Shown here: in pieces, positions 23,964 through 57,481 of the stretch
How positions within the stretch are numbered: the stretch's first letter is position 1
Layout of the letters: each line of letters begins with the position of its first letter
Assembly (NCBI RefSeq): GCF_014137945.1
Contig: NZ_JACGWX010000006.1
Location: 1 to 64,000, forward strand
Direction of reading: 5' to 3'
DNA length: 64,000 bases
Source: Microcella alkalica
GTDB taxonomy: Bacteria; Actinomycetota; Actinomycetes; Actinomycetales; Microbacteriaceae
The notes under the pieces: generated by a model
The model's database searches: none
Seen by the model: only the letters and a program-made list of their open reading frames with translations
What the model was told of the DNA's origin: nothing
Translations under genes and position numbers: made by a program

Positions 23964-24514
23964 GCGTCATCCTGTACTCGCTGCTCGTACTCGCGACAGG
24001 CGTCGAGCGCCTCGTCGAGCTCGTCATCTCGAAGCGGCACGCGACCGCCGCCTTCGCGCGCGGGGGAGTCGAGCACGGTCGCCGGCACTTCCCGTGGATG
24101 GTGCTCCTGCACACGGGACTGCTCGTCGCGTGCGTCGCGGAGGTCGTGCTGCTCGACCGTCCCTTCATCGCGACGCTCGGGTGGCCGATGCTCGTCATCG
24201 CGCTGCTCTGCCAGGTCGGCCGCTACTGGGTCATCGCCTCGCTCGGCGAGCAGTGGAACACGCGCGTCATCGTCGTCCCTGGCGCGACGCGCGTGACTCG
24301 CGGCCCGTACTGCTTCGCCTGGCTGCGGCACCCGAACTACTGGATCGTCGCGATCGAGGGCATCGCGCTCCCGCTCGTGCACAGCGCGTGGCTGACCGCG
24401 CTCGTGTTCACCGTTCTCAACGCTGTGCTGCTGCTCGGCTTCCGCATCCCCGTCGAGAACCGCGCGCTCGGCGCGCTGCGCACGGACGGCGCCCGCCCGG
24501 CGGATGCGCGATGA
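23960..24514 (+). CDS. Isoprenylcysteine carboxyl methyltransferase-family membrane methyltransferase (SrsB-like)
   Basis: The 184-residue protein has about four or five transmembrane helices and the ICMT-like motif GPYCFAWLRHPNYWIV, in which the RHPNY part binds S-adenosylmethionine. In type III PKS operons such proteins O-methylate alkylresorcinols rather than prenylated proteins. Its ATG overlaps the synthase stop and its stop overlaps the next ATG, so the three proteins are made together at the membrane. Confidence 0.88.
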   Translation: MSVILYSLLVLATGVERLVELVISKRHATAAFARGGVEHGRRHFPWMVLLHTGLLVACVAEVVLLDRPFIATLGWPMLVIALLCQVGRYWVIASLGEQWNTRVIVVPGATRVTRGPYCFAWLRHPNYWIVAIEGIALPLVHSAWLTALVFTVLNAVLLLGFRIPVENRALGALRTDGARPADAR

Positions 24515-25539
24515 CGACCGCCGACGTCGATGTCGTGATCGCCGGCGGCGGCCCGGTCGGGCTGGTCCTCGCGCTCGAGCTCGAGCGCCGCGGTCTGCAC
24601 CCTGTGGTGCTCGAGCCGCGCACGGGCGAGATCGACAAGGCGTGCGGCGAGGGCATCATGCCGGGTGGGCTCGCCGCGCTGCACCGGCTCGACATCGACC
24701 CGCCGGGTCATGCGATCAGAGGCATACGCTACGAGGATGCCCGCGGCGCGGTCACGCACCGCTACCGCTCTCGAGAGGGACGCGGCGTGCGCCGCACCGC
24801 GCTGAGCGCCAGCCTGCGCGCTGCGCTGTCGGCGCGCGGGATCGACCTGAGGCCCGAGAGGGTCGAGCGCTTCGTGCACGACGAGCTCGGCGTCTCGGTC
24901 AACGGTCTGCGGGCGAGGTGGCTCGTGGGCGCCGACGGCCTGCACTCGCGCGTGCGAAGCGAGGCCGGGCTCGGAGATGCCGATCGCGGCATGAAGCGCT
25001 TCGGCCTGCGTCGTCACTACGCGATCGCGCCGTGGAGCGACGTCGTCGAGGTGACGTTCGGCCCCGGCTGGGAGCTGTACGTCACGCCCGTCGACGCGTC
25101 GACGGTTGGCGTCGCTGTGCTGGGGCCGAAGGGCGTCGACCTCGAGGCGGCGATCGCCGCGCACCCCGGGCTGCGCGAGCGGCTCGCCGGGGTCGACGTC
25201 GCCTCCGAGCTGCGCGGAGCGGGCGCCCTCCGCCAGCGAACCCTCACCCGCTCGACAGGACGCATCGCGCTCGTCGGCGACGCCTCCGGCTACGTCGATG
25301 CGATCACCGGCGAGGGCATGCGCGTCGGCTTCGCGCAGGCCGAGGTGCTCGCCGACTGCCTCGCGCGCGACGACCTGCCCGCCTACGAGCGGGCGTGGTC
25401 GCGGTCGACGCGCGACTTCCGGCTGCTCACCGAGGGGCTCGTGCGCCTCGCGAGCTCACCCGCCCGCCCGGCGATCATGCCGGCCGCGCGCGCGATGCCG
25501 TGGCTCTTCGGCGCGATCGTCGAGCGCCTCGCGCGGTAG
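24511..25539 (+). CDS. FAD-dependent aromatic monooxygenase (SrsC-like)
   Basis: The 342-residue flavoprotein has VVIAGGGPVGLVLALELERRG (FAD Rossmann motif), WLVGADGLHSRVR (the DG motif) and RIALVGDASGYVDAITGEGM (GD motif), the three marks of group A flavin monooxygenases. In srs-type operons the partner hydroxylates the methylated resorcinol to a quinone-forming phenolic lipid. It is shorter than plant-type hydroxylases and closer to geranylgeranyl-reductase-like flavoproteins in length. Confidence 0.85.
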   Translation: MTTADVDVVIAGGGPVGLVLALELERRGLHPVVLEPRTGEIDKACGEGIMPGGLAALHRLDIDPPGHAIRGIRYEDARGAVTHRYRSREGRGVRRTALSASLRAALSARGIDLRPERVERFVHDELGVSVNGLRARWLVGADGLHSRVRSEAGLGDADRGMKRFGLRRHYAIAPWSDVVEVTFGPGWELYVTPVDASTVGVAVLGPKGVDLEAAIAAHPGLRERLAGVDVASELRGAGALRQRTLTRSTGRIALVGDASGYVDAITGEGMRVGFAQAEVLADCLARDDLPAYERAWSRSTRDFRLLTEGLVRLASSPARPAIMPAARAMPWLFGAIVERLAR

Positions 25540-25587: not shown

Positions 25588-25679
25588 GCTCGACCGAATG
25601 AAGGGAGCCGTCGGTCACCGCACGGCGTGTCGCCGCGACACGCCGTCCCTCCGCCGCGCGCTCCCTTCACTTGGTCGAG
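25588..25679. repeat. 92-bp palindromic element, family P1 copy 1
   Basis: Outer arms of 20 bases (25588-25607 and 25660-25679) are imperfect inverted repeats carrying CGAATGAAGGGAG and CTCCCTTCACTTGG. Inside is a perfect 12-1-12 hairpin ACGGCGTGTCGC-C-GCGACACGCCGT (25622-25646). A second element of exactly the same length lies at 57366-57457. This copy sits between convergent genes, where it could also end transcription from both sides. The rest of the 25540-25716 gap holds no gene. Confidence 0.8.
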
Positions 25680-25716: not shown

Positions 25717-26418
25717 TCAGGCCGCCGGCTGGTCCGCGGCGGGCAGCCCGAGCAGCGATCGCAGCTCGTCCGGCGTCGACGCGACGAGCGCTGCGTGCGC
25801 GCGCTCGGCATCCGTGCCATAGCCCCACTCGACCGCGATCGTCGGTACCCCGTGAACGGCCGCGCCCTCGATGTCGTGGATGCGGTCGCCGACCATGACG
25901 ACGTTCGACAGGTCGACGCTGAGGCTGTTGAGCCGACGCAGGGCCTCCTCGACGACATCTGCCTTCTCGCTGCGAGTCTCATCGGCCGAGGCTCCGGTGA
26001 TGACGGTGAAGCAGTGCGCGACCGTGAAGTGCTCGAGCATGAGCGTCGCCGGCAGCTCGGGCTTCGAGGTCGCCAGACTGAGCGGGATGCCCGCCTCGGC
26101 GATGTCCTGCACGAGCAGACCCATGCCGGGGTAGAGGGTCGAGTCGTAGGCGCCGCGGTCGAGGTATCGCTCGCGGTAGATCTCGAGCGCCCGCTGCGCC
26201 GTGGGCAGGTCGAGGCCGGCGAGGTCGCGGAACGAGTCCATGATCGGAGGGCCCACCCAGCGCAGGAGCTCATCGTATGCCGGCACGGGCATCCCGAGCT
26301 GCTCGTAGGTGTAGGCGAGCGTGTCGGTGATGCCGGGGGCCGAGTCGGTAATCGTGCCATCGAAGTCGAGGAGGATCGCCGAGAACGGCGGGCGGGGCGT
26401 GGCAGGTGCGGAAGTCAT
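25717..26418 (-). CDS. HAD-superfamily hydrolase, phosphoglycolate phosphatase-like
   Basis: The 233-residue protein has the HAD motifs LLDFDGTITDS (nucleophile Asp), LATSKPE (motif II), and VVMVGDRIHDIEGAAVHG (motif IV), plus an alpha-helical cap. It resembles the Gph/PGMB group of phosphatases acting on small phosphorylated metabolites. The ATG at 26418 is preferred to an in-frame start further upstream because the FDGT motif then starts at about residue 17. It lies 25 bases downstream of nucS on the same strand. Confidence 0.85.
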   Translation of the reverse strand: MTSAPATPRPPFSAILLDFDGTITDSAPGITDTLAYTYEQLGMPVPAYDELLRWVGPPIMDSFRDLAGLDLPTAQRALEIYRERYLDRGAYDSTLYPGMGLLVQDIAEAGIPLSLATSKPELPATLMLEHFTVAHCFTVITGASADETRSEKADVVEEALRRLNSLSVDLSNVVMVGDRIHDIEGAAVHGVPTIAVEWGYGTDAERAHAALVASTPDELRSLLGLPAADQPAA

Positions 26419-28082: not shown

Positions 28083-28167
28083 TGCCAAATGCAGGCACCA
28101 GCGAACGTGAACGGCGCGTCTACCGCGGAATCACGCTGAGGGTGACGTGCAATGCCTGCATTCGGCA
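28083..28167. repeat. 85-bp palindromic element, family P2 copy 1
   Basis: Arms TGCCAAATGCAGGCA (28083-28097) and TGCCTGCATTCGGCA (28153-28167) are inverted repeats with one mismatch. A second 85-bp copy with the same two arm variants, in the opposite orientation, lies at 53898-53982. The 55-base interiors of the two copies show no clear similarity. The remainder of 28059-28293 contains no supportable gene. Confidence 0.8.
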
Positions 28168-53769: not shown

Positions 53770-53792
53770 CGGCGGCGACTCCCGCGCTGTAG
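53747..53792 (+). repeat. 23-bp tandem duplication across the hemL stop codon
   Basis: The segment 53747-53769, which ends with the TAG stop of hemL, is repeated exactly at 53770-53792. The duplication leaves hemL unchanged but adds a spare stop. Confidence 0.9.
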
Positions 53793-53794
53793 CG

Positions 53795-53836
53795 GCGCGC
53801 GGTGGGCCCGCGCTGCCGCGCGGGCCCACCGCGCGC
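53795..53836 (+). terminator. Terminator of the hem operon
   Basis: A perfect 18-bp stem (53795-53812 with 53819-53836) and loop CTGCCG lie 25 bases after the hemL stop. Confidence 0.8.
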
Positions 53837-53897
53837 CCCTAACGCGCCTGTGGTCGAGCCCGCGCGCGCTCGTCGGCGCGGACCTGACCGAACCCGT

Positions 53898-53982
53898 TGC
53901 CGAATGCAGGCAGTACGGCCTTCGCCGATCACCTGGTCGGGGCGGCATGTGCCCCGCCGTCTGCGCGTGCCTGCATTTGGCA
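53898..53982. repeat. 85-bp palindromic element, family P2 copy 2
   Basis: Arms TGCCGAATGCAGGCA (53898-53912) and TGCCTGCATTTGGCA (53968-53982) are the same two arm variants as at 28083-28167, in inverted order. Total length and 55-base interior length are identical to copy 1. The interior sequence is different and has its own hairpin (GGGGCGGCATGTGCCCC). Confidence 0.8.
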
Positions 53983-56291: not shown

Positions 56292-57481
56292 GGGCGCGTC
56301 CCCTTCCGAGCGGCACCGCGGTCGACGCCGGCCTGCTCGCCGCGCACGAGGAGCGCGATGAGCACGACGGCGCCCGCGGCGCCCGTGATGAGTCCGACCG
56401 GCGGCGAGAGCGTGCCGGGGATGAGGTGCTGGGCGACGAGGTCGGCGAGGGCGACGACCGCCGCGCCGACGAGGGCCGCGGTGCCGAGGGCGGGCGATCG
56501 CCCGCGGAGGCGCCGCGCGATCGGACCGGACGCGAACGCCACGAACGCGATCGGCCCCGCCACCGACACCGCCACGGCGGCGAGGATGCTCGAGCCCGTC
56601 ATCGCCGCAACCCGCGTTGCGACAGGGCTGGCCCCGATCGCGCGCGCCGAGCCGTCGTCGAGCGACTGGGCCGCGAGGGGCCTCCGGGCGGCGACGAGCC
56701 CGAGGGCCGCGACTGCGACGGTCGAGCCCACGAGCGCGACGTCGTCCCACGACGGCGACCCGACCGACCCGACGAGCCAGAACCACGCGCTCTGCGCCTG
56801 CGTGAGGTTGGCGCGCGTGAGGGCGTAGCCGACGATGCCGTTGGCGAGGAAGGCGACGGCGATGCCGATGACGACGAAGCGCGCTCCGGCGACGGCTCGT
56901 CCGCTCGCCGCGACGACGACGGACGTGGCGACGAGGGCGCCGACGAGGGCGGCGCCGCTCACGGCGAGCCCGGTGAGCCCGCCGGCGATGGCGAGCACGG
57001 CGGCGGCGCTCGCGCCTCCCGTGACTCCGACTATGTCGGGGCTCGCGAGCGGATTCCGCACGACCGACTGCAGCAGCGCGCCGCTGAGTCCGAGCGCGGC
57101 TCCGACGACCAGCGCGAGGAGGAGGCGCGGCAGCCGCAGCCCTTGCACGATGAACACCGCACCCCCGGTGCCCTCGAGCCCGAGCAGCCCGGCGACGACC
57201 TCGGCGGGGGCGAGCGGCACGTCGCCGAGCGCGAGCGCGAGCATCCCGACCGCGACGATCACGACGAGGATGCCCGCGACCACGCCGATCGCGCGCCGTC
57301 GGTCGCGCGCCCGCCCGGCCTCGATCGCGGCGACGGTCGCGGCGCACGCCGTCGGCAGCCCCTCCGCTCGATCAAATGAAGGGAGGCGACCGCCAGGGTG
57401 CGGCGTGTCGCGCCGACGCGCCGCGCGGGAGGGGCGTGCTCCCTTCATTTGGTCGAGCACGGGCACGAGGGGGCGAGTCAC
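56288..57481 (-). CDS. Siderophore ABC permease, FecCD family, with palindromic-repeat insert in its N terminus
   Basis: The 397-residue permease has about nine to ten helices with GLSGALLQSVVRNPLASPDIVGVTGGAS and GRSPALGTAALVGA as FecCD signatures. GTG 57481 overlaps the upstream permease stop (GTGA), and the reading frame then runs through the entire 92-bp P1 element. That adds a stretch LDQMKGAR...DTP...RLPSFDRA of 31 residues before the first helix. The N-terminal tail is therefore about 65 residues instead of the usual 10-25. An alternative ATG (57448) lies inside the element. Confidence 0.88.
   Translation of the reverse strand: MTRPLVPVLDQMKGARPSRAARRRDTPHPGGRLPSFDRAEGLPTACAATVAAIEAGRARDRRRAIGVVAGILVVIVAVGMLALALGDVPLAPAEVVAGLLGLEGTGGAVFIVQGLRLPRLLLALVVGAALGLSGALLQSVVRNPLASPDIVGVTGGASAAAVLAIAGGLTGLAVSGAALVGALVATSVVVAASGRAVAGARFVVIGIAVAFLANGIVGYALTRANLTQAQSAWFWLVGSVGSPSWDDVALVGSTVAVAALGLVAARRPLAAQSLDDGSARAIGASPVATRVAAMTGSSILAAVAVSVAGPIAFVAFASGPIARRLRGRSPALGTAALVGAAVVALADLVAQHLIPGTLSPPVGLITGAAGAVVLIALLVRGEQAGVDRGAARKGTRP
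57366..57457. repeat. 92-bp palindromic element, family P1 copy 2, inside a coding sequence
   Basis: Arms 57366-57385 and 57438-57457 pair with one mismatch over 19 bases (AAATGAAGGGAG with CTCCCTTCATTT). The 52-base interior lines up with copy 1 without gaps and shares CGGCGTGTCGC. The element is read in frame as part of the FecCD permease N terminus. In both copies this frame contains no stop. Confidence 0.85.

Follow-up and report, generated by a model that had tools for sequence, protein, structure and literature searches.

REPINs, the hairpin-forming doublets of REP sequences found in Pseudomonas and other bacteria, have conserved inverted ends of about 16 bp that are kept at a constant distance, according to excerpts of their description, in which the first residues of type GI lie 71 bp apart (PMC3116915). 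The same excerpts report a less conserved spacer, an extragenic location, several types per genome and occasional tandem arrays, as well as compensatory changes in the predicted hairpin (PMC3116915). For REPs, copy numbers usually above 100 are given in a section of another source (PMC2817692), and MITE-type repeats such as ERIC, RUP and Correia elements are outlined, again in an excerpt, as short, inverted-repeat, dispersed and mainly intergenic sequences (PMC10969869). The palindromic elements analyzed here also have inverted conserved ends, a constant distance and a variable spacer, and their layout comes closest to that of REPINs. In a limited search of the literature on the inner sequence and on actinobacterial palindromic repeats no description of the element was found, and searches of Rfam with the window (the whole stretch of 64,000 nucleotides of Microcella alkalica DNA that was analyzed) and 13 loci gave no match at the gathering score.

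The window contains two copies of the class-1 element at 25588-25679 and 57366-57457, exactly where the sequence-only reading had placed them, and the family behind them proved larger than it had stated. Copy 1, to which no strand is assigned, is situated between convergent genes, a FAD-binding protein gene on the plus strand (24511-25539) and a HAD hydrolase gene on the minus strand (25717-26418). Its left outer arm CTCGACCGAATGAAGGGAG (25589-25607, plus) is followed by the left inner half-site CGGCGTGTCG (25623-25632, plus), a 3-base loop, the right inner half-site CGACACGCCG (25636-25645, minus) and the right outer arm (25661-25679, minus). Copy 2, likewise without strand, is flanked by two FecCD permease genes arranged in tandem on the minus strand and consists of the left outer arm CTCGATCAAATGAAGGGAG (57367-57385, plus), the left inner half-site CGGCGTGTCG (57401-57410, plus), the right inner half-site CGACGCGCCG with 1 mismatch (57414-57423, minus) and the right outer arm (57439-57457, minus). 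In both copies a 19-base arm is followed by a 15-base spacer, CGGCGTGTCG, a 3-base loop, CGACACGCCG (one mismatch in copy 2), another 15-base spacer and, at the far end, the other arm. The constant length that had been claimed is real, whereas the proposed dimensions of 92 bp, 20-base arms and a 52-base interior have to be corrected to 91 bp, 19 bases and 53 bases (arm to arm 25589-25679 and 57367-57457), because the bases 25588 and 57366 fall outside the paired arm. Arm matches occurred in 0 of 100 dinucleotide-preserving shuffles of the window. Both copies fold as RNA better than shuffled sequences on both strands (z -6.1 to -9.2), since their outer arms and inner boxes are self-complementary; the folds are formed by the outer arms and the inner 10-bp hairpin, the latter in line with the sequence-only reading.

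A search of the whole genome (2.74 Mb, 13 contigs) with the 19-mer arm and up to 3 mismatches revealed 26 half-sites, which correspond to 12 complete inward-facing pairs, 7 of 91 bp and 5 of 92 bp, and 2 half-sites with a partner too diverged for the pattern. The covariance model gave 34 matches over both strands, i.e. 17 sites, and about 25 copies were found in this genome. The postulated family of constant length was thereby confirmed: further dispersed, intergenic and palindromic copies of constant length exist in the genome and its relatives, so that neither a lack of more copies nor random lengths, named beforehand as the arguments against it, apply. Searches with the arms only, which ignore the interior and covered G001, G004, G005, G006 and the two arm classes of this genome, placed 57 of 58 inward-facing pairs up to 400 bp in one length class, i.e. 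two inverted conserved ends at constant distance as in REPINs and terminal inverted repeats as in MITEs. This class measures 91-92 bp with the 19-mer probe and 84-86 bp with shorter probes, which is about equal when the three outer bases added per side by the 19-mer are allowed for. The sole exception, 229 bp long, has one half-site in common with a normal pair.

The second arm class, which was absent from the sequence-only reading, has the arm TGCCRAATGCAGGCA and forms 10 pairs in this genome, 3 of 84 bp and 7 of 85 bp. Two of these fixed-length palindromes, both without strand, belong to the window, one at 28083-28167 with the arms TGCCAAATGCAGGCA and TGCCTGCATTCGGCA and a 55-base interior without clear inner pair, the other at 53898-53982 with the arms TGCCGAATGCAGGCA and TGCCTGCATTTGGCA and a 55-base interior without the CGGCGTGTCG pair. 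A clear inner pair is missing in 8 of the 10 class-2 copies, which nonetheless have the same length. The best match to the inner half-site in these eight interiors averages 6.9 of 10 compared to 6.7 for shuffled sequence, and the interiors are mutually unrelated (mean pairwise identity 0.31, largest 0.47). Because such copies keep their length, the distance between the arms is under constraint even where inner boxes are missing. The fixed length could partly reflect common descent. The window also harbors an inverted repeat of 30 bp at 53784-53847, 90% complementary and closed by a loop of 4 bases, some 50 bp away from the class-2 element that starts at 53898.

Beyond this genome, the covariance model detected the element in 17 of 26 genomes of the genus at E 0.001, and at E 0.0001 with stricter filters in 7 of 160 genomes and 4 of 85 genera of the family (own genome included in each case). 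The first model, R1, comprised the inner stem only and was replaced by R2, the input of which includes rows from other genera misaligned by about 1 base. The strict arm pattern was found in 5 of 26 genus genomes, own included, and in 2 genomes from a draw of 299 of the family, both of the own genus, while the short-loop inner pair occurred in 12 of 26 genus genomes and in 7 of 199 genomes and 5 of 85 genera of the family (own included). Such strict searches undercount, as G004 has no match to the short-loop inner pair, yet 13 arm pairs. The arm types vary by species, and any one genome contains one or two of them. The inner pair CGGCGTGTCG..CGACACGCCG also occurs in other actinobacterial genera, and an equal layout with different arms was observed in G064 (GCAAATTCAGGAGAT), G103 (GATCAGGAA) and G109 (CATTCGGAA); the spacing in these copies is no independent test, because they were found via the inner pair or the model. 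An exact inner-pair scan across the named genomes returned at least 116 stretches and at least 80 loci, and reveals this inner sequence only, because it used the exact pair. Among the matches listed, 11 of 83 tested flank pairs have outer arms that differ at no more than 1 of 12 positions, compared to 0.4% of shuffled pairs. These 11 belong to Yonghaparkia, Lacisediminihabitans, two Microbacterium, Agromyces kandeliae, Demequina salsinemoris, four Saccharopolyspora and one Limisphaerales record; three of the four Saccharopolyspora have their arms 32-35 bases out, which indicates a different build, and the Limisphaerales record merely represents a longer stem. No such outer arms were seen in the listed matches from Nocardioides and in nearly all of those from Nocardia, and the Nocardioides and most Nocardia matches may be unrelated to the element.

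At Saccharopolyspora loci such as L090, L091, L137 and L146 the inner hairpin lies within repeats bearing GATTTCAATTGAAATC-like palindromes, and the flanks often hold TTGTCCACA or TTATCCACA, which we take to resemble DnaA boxes. Three tandem copies with a spacing of 137-138 bp and common flanks, a local amplification, are present at L405:5243-5610 (G064 C2:34242-34609). Inspection by eye revealed no common neighbour gene at the loci of clustered copies in G064 and G103, and no consistent clustering of the model hits of G004, G005 and G006 at the origin or terminus. A phage or plasmid origin was considered and rejected. Window copy 1 has no match in plasmids and window copy 2 none in phages; viral contigs contain 2 stretches with the short-loop and 8 with the long-loop inner pair.

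In the list of 80 sites, the loop between the inner half-sites has 3-6 bases in 68 and 15 bases in 12 cases with no intermediates. Since the majority of this list was obtained with a model favouring short loops, 29 copies of two species selected by their arm pairs (13 from G004, 16 from G005) are the better sample. Their outer length is 84-85 bp throughout. The centres of the inner halves are 17.5 and 7.5 bp away from the axis in 25 of the 29 (13 in one order, 12 in the other), and the remaining four show 7.5/7.5 (2), 7.5/16.5 (1) or an unclear arrangement (1). In these 25 copies one inner half-site is thus moved outward by exactly 10 bp, approximately one turn of B-DNA, at constant outer distance, and the two spacers of most G004 and G005 copies comprise 6 and 16 bases in either order. 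The asymmetric form of G004 and G005 may trace back to one or few ancestral events, and some displaced copies, for example G005 174248 and G004 1174455, have a common loop sequence; for both reasons the 25 copies do not count as 25 independent events.

The spacers of the same copy show no tendency to pair. Their Watson-Crick fraction was 0.332 compared to 0.337 with shuffled partners, 310 of 500 shuffles being at least as high, and their folding energy was likewise no better than with shuffled partners (67 of the 80 copies; 12 long-loop copies and one poor match were excluded). A single continuous hairpin is ruled out by this test: since the spacers of one copy do not pair, the element is not one long hairpin. 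A spacer hairpin with compensatory changes, as in REPINs, was correspondingly not found in the 67 copies, whose inner boxes can pair into a hairpin of their own. In the 34 class-1 copies, the two arms carry 55 and 51 variants and 69 arm-arm mismatches, hence many variants are uncompensated. Variants shared within a copy amounted to 16 compared to 5.7 in shuffles, and the 69 mismatches to 91.7 with shuffled partners (each 0 of 2000). This covariation is the pattern that a paired stem would give, and genome-level arm types explain part of it. The 10 copies of G005 gave no covariation signal (shared variants 1 versus 0.6, mismatches 11 versus 11.7), and between species 20 of 20 outer pairs have changed on both sides. 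We read the arms as two inverted copies of one half-site, although the evidence on this point is mixed. The earlier description of the element as structured has to be qualified: the two spacers do not pair, and the exact 10-bp displacement of an inner half-site is easier to reconcile with a protein reading duplex DNA than with a strand that folds.

A comparison of orthologous loci showed that ten chosen pairs are 94% identical in arms and inner boxes (472/500) and 49% identical in spacers (145/298). These ten, of which some have copies in common and three were matched by one flanking gene only, were drawn from 15 pairs, the omitted ones being three with species-differing arm type and two G000-G015 pairs; for all 15 the values are 82% and 76% for arms, 99% and 98% for inner boxes, and 47% and 40% for spacers. 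Some of these pairs could represent repeated insertions into the same gap. The gap between isocitrate lyase (aceA) and malate synthase (aceB) bears the element in G000, G006 and G001, each time with different arms. In two orthologous pairs, G000 C1:18230 with G024 C13:6493 and G000 C6:136780 with G024 C28:8007, the left spacers agree at 15/15 and 13/15 and the right ones at 8/15 and 6/15, the latter being near background, and two copies at different loci, G009 C60:123594 and G022 C1:1837595, agree at 14/15 in one spacer and 6/15 in the other. It may be that one half of the element was replaced as a block.

Insertion polymorphism between relatives is present at two loci. The locus of window copy 1 bears the element in G000 and G011, and is empty with a gap of 16-47 bp in G025, G024, G003, G015 and G009; as both flanking proteins show G000 to be more closely related to G025 than to G011, this distribution requires either two gains or a loss in G025. 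At the lysS-panC locus, named from the protein starts, both G008 and G022 have the element. G009, which is 94-95% identical to G008 in this region, lacks it and has 16 bp in place of 129 bp, and G000 has a class-2 copy at this place. Occupied and empty sites differ in more than the element, so that the event, which may be a gain or a loss, is not exact to the base. The same gap bears other palindromes in L331, L333 and L334 (G002, G001 and G010), for example GGAGCCCC..GGTG / CACC..GGGGCCCC in G001 and G002, which suggests a hot spot or a site of other element families.

The assignment to REP- or MITE-like units, made from the sequence alone, stood with respect to a dispersed palindromic family, and its REP route was not supported, because none of the 26 genus genomes gave a match to PF01797, the Y1/RAYT transposase. 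This search covered Y1 only and detected the domain in 5 of 14 control genomes. The target duplications that had been anticipated were not consistently seen either: next to 39 class-1 and 10 G005 copies, direct repeats were not regularly more frequent than expected, and the strongest departure was two 5-mers compared to 0.2 expected at one of many offsets. Finally, a recent mobilization is not supported for the class-1 copies of this genome, which have a mean identity of 0.37 in the spacers versus 0.83-0.88 in the arms.

In our view there is an even chance that the elements, dispersed palindromes of about 85-94 bp, represent double-stranded, helically phased platforms for one or more putative trans-acting, sequence-specific proteins. 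Such a platform would present the species-specific arms as two inverted outer half-sites with a set distance from one to the other; in most cases it would also have two conserved inner half-sites, CGGCGTGTCG, placed between the arms and in the same helical register. A complex of one or two proteins would measure the distance between the half-sites, which could explain why the spacers are free to drift whereas arms, inner boxes and length are maintained, and copies might spread within genomes in a MITE- or REPIN-like manner via some mobiliser. We infer the binding protein itself as well as double-stranded DNA, rather than RNA or single-stranded DNA, as the working form. The excess of copies in convergent gaps leads us to guess that the bound complex is chiefly a roadblock or insulator at gene ends. 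As a tentative possibility, the element may be a novel type of chromosomal 'caliper' site found in Actinomycetota, with inverted half-sites 84-86 bp apart (outer ends) and optional inner half-sites that can be shifted by a whole turn, which would be read by a putative fast-evolving DNA-binding protein that bends or bridges approximately 85 bp and marks gene ends as insulator, roadblock or nucleoid anchor, the arms changing genome-wide together with the protein.

A selfish REPIN- or MITE-like element would have its ends recognised, perhaps as single-stranded hairpin, by a non-RAYT transposase acting in trans, its length would result from the transposition complex or from descent only, and single copies would have no role for the host. 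The dispersed copies with inverted ends, the presence or absence at the copy 1 locus and in G008 versus G009, the tandem triple in G064 and the arm covariation above shuffles are all expected from such an element, and inverted 16-mers at constant distance are likewise given for REPINs in the excerpted source (PMC3116915). We nevertheless regard it as rather unlikely, given that consistent target duplications were not found, that the 26 genomes gave no Y1 transposase in a search for Y1 only, that the class-1 copies of this genome have no common spacers and that orthologous copies keep their boxes while spacers change, unlike a dead insertion.

The genomic context would also suit a bidirectional transcription terminator or 3'-end hairpin between convergent genes. 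From the 80 sites, 74 could be classified as 39 convergent, 28 tandem and 7 divergent, with 4 further ones at contig or stretch ends and 2 inside a called gene, whereas sampled stretches of two genomes have 16% and 22% of gaps and 29% and 17% of intergenic bases in convergent orientation; these counts stem from a home-made gene caller and include orthologous copies separately. Moreover, 14 of the 39 convergent sites lie 30-39 bp from the closer of the two gene ends. The tandem and divergent sites argue against termination, as do the site between aceA and aceB in three species and window copy 2 between its FecCD genes. In addition, the flanks of class 1 are G+C-rich (74-86% at positions 4-8 outside the arm) without a T run after the stem, and termination requires neither genome-wide common arms nor a fixed length, which renders this explanation improbable. 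Even less probable is a structured RNA such as one with a dual-guide function, with variable spacers as guides within paired edges and a central hairpin. The layout of edge, spacer, hairpin, spacer and edge, the combination of variable spacers with fixed length and the outer arms covarying between species would agree with it; against it stand the lack of an Rfam family at the searched copies, spacers of 6 and 16 bases in either order in most G004 and G005 copies, the central hairpin missing in 8 of 10 class-2 copies and the many uncompensated arm mismatches. The platform for a putative binding protein hence remains the reading we prefer.

Dispersed short chromosomal sites that are each read by one trans-acting protein are well known, such as matS, parS and the SlmA sites. 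Our element differs from these by its greater length, four boxes, species-specific arms and no established positional cluster, and we know of no protein-binding site with its sequence. A four-box layout with outer and inner inverted boxes and a variable middle is also typical for integron attC sites. The element resembles them in all three respects, but it occurs as isolated copies between ordinary genes and not in cassette arrays. Like MITEs, it is short, inverted-repeat, dispersed and mainly intergenic; in contrast to them, it has no consistent target duplication, no common interior and a fixed length with a variable inside, and no parent transposon with its arms was seen among the arm pairs up to 400 bp examined in five genomes (G000, G001, G004, G005 and G006). 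Compared with REPINs, its genus has no Y1/RAYT transposase in 26 genomes, its spacers do not pair, its conserved inner half-sites can sit exactly 10 bp further out, its boxes are retained at orthologous loci, and the about 25 copies in this genome contrast with the more than 100 usually given for REPs in the portion of the source cited above (PMC2817692). A REPIN-like dispersed element in a genus with no detected Y1 transposase raises the question of what spreads or keeps such repeats. It also offers a natural experiment on nucleoprotein constraint, with length and half-site phase held across species while the arms are replaced and the interior drifts, and if a binding protein were found, its co-evolution with the site could be read directly from the arm types of related species.
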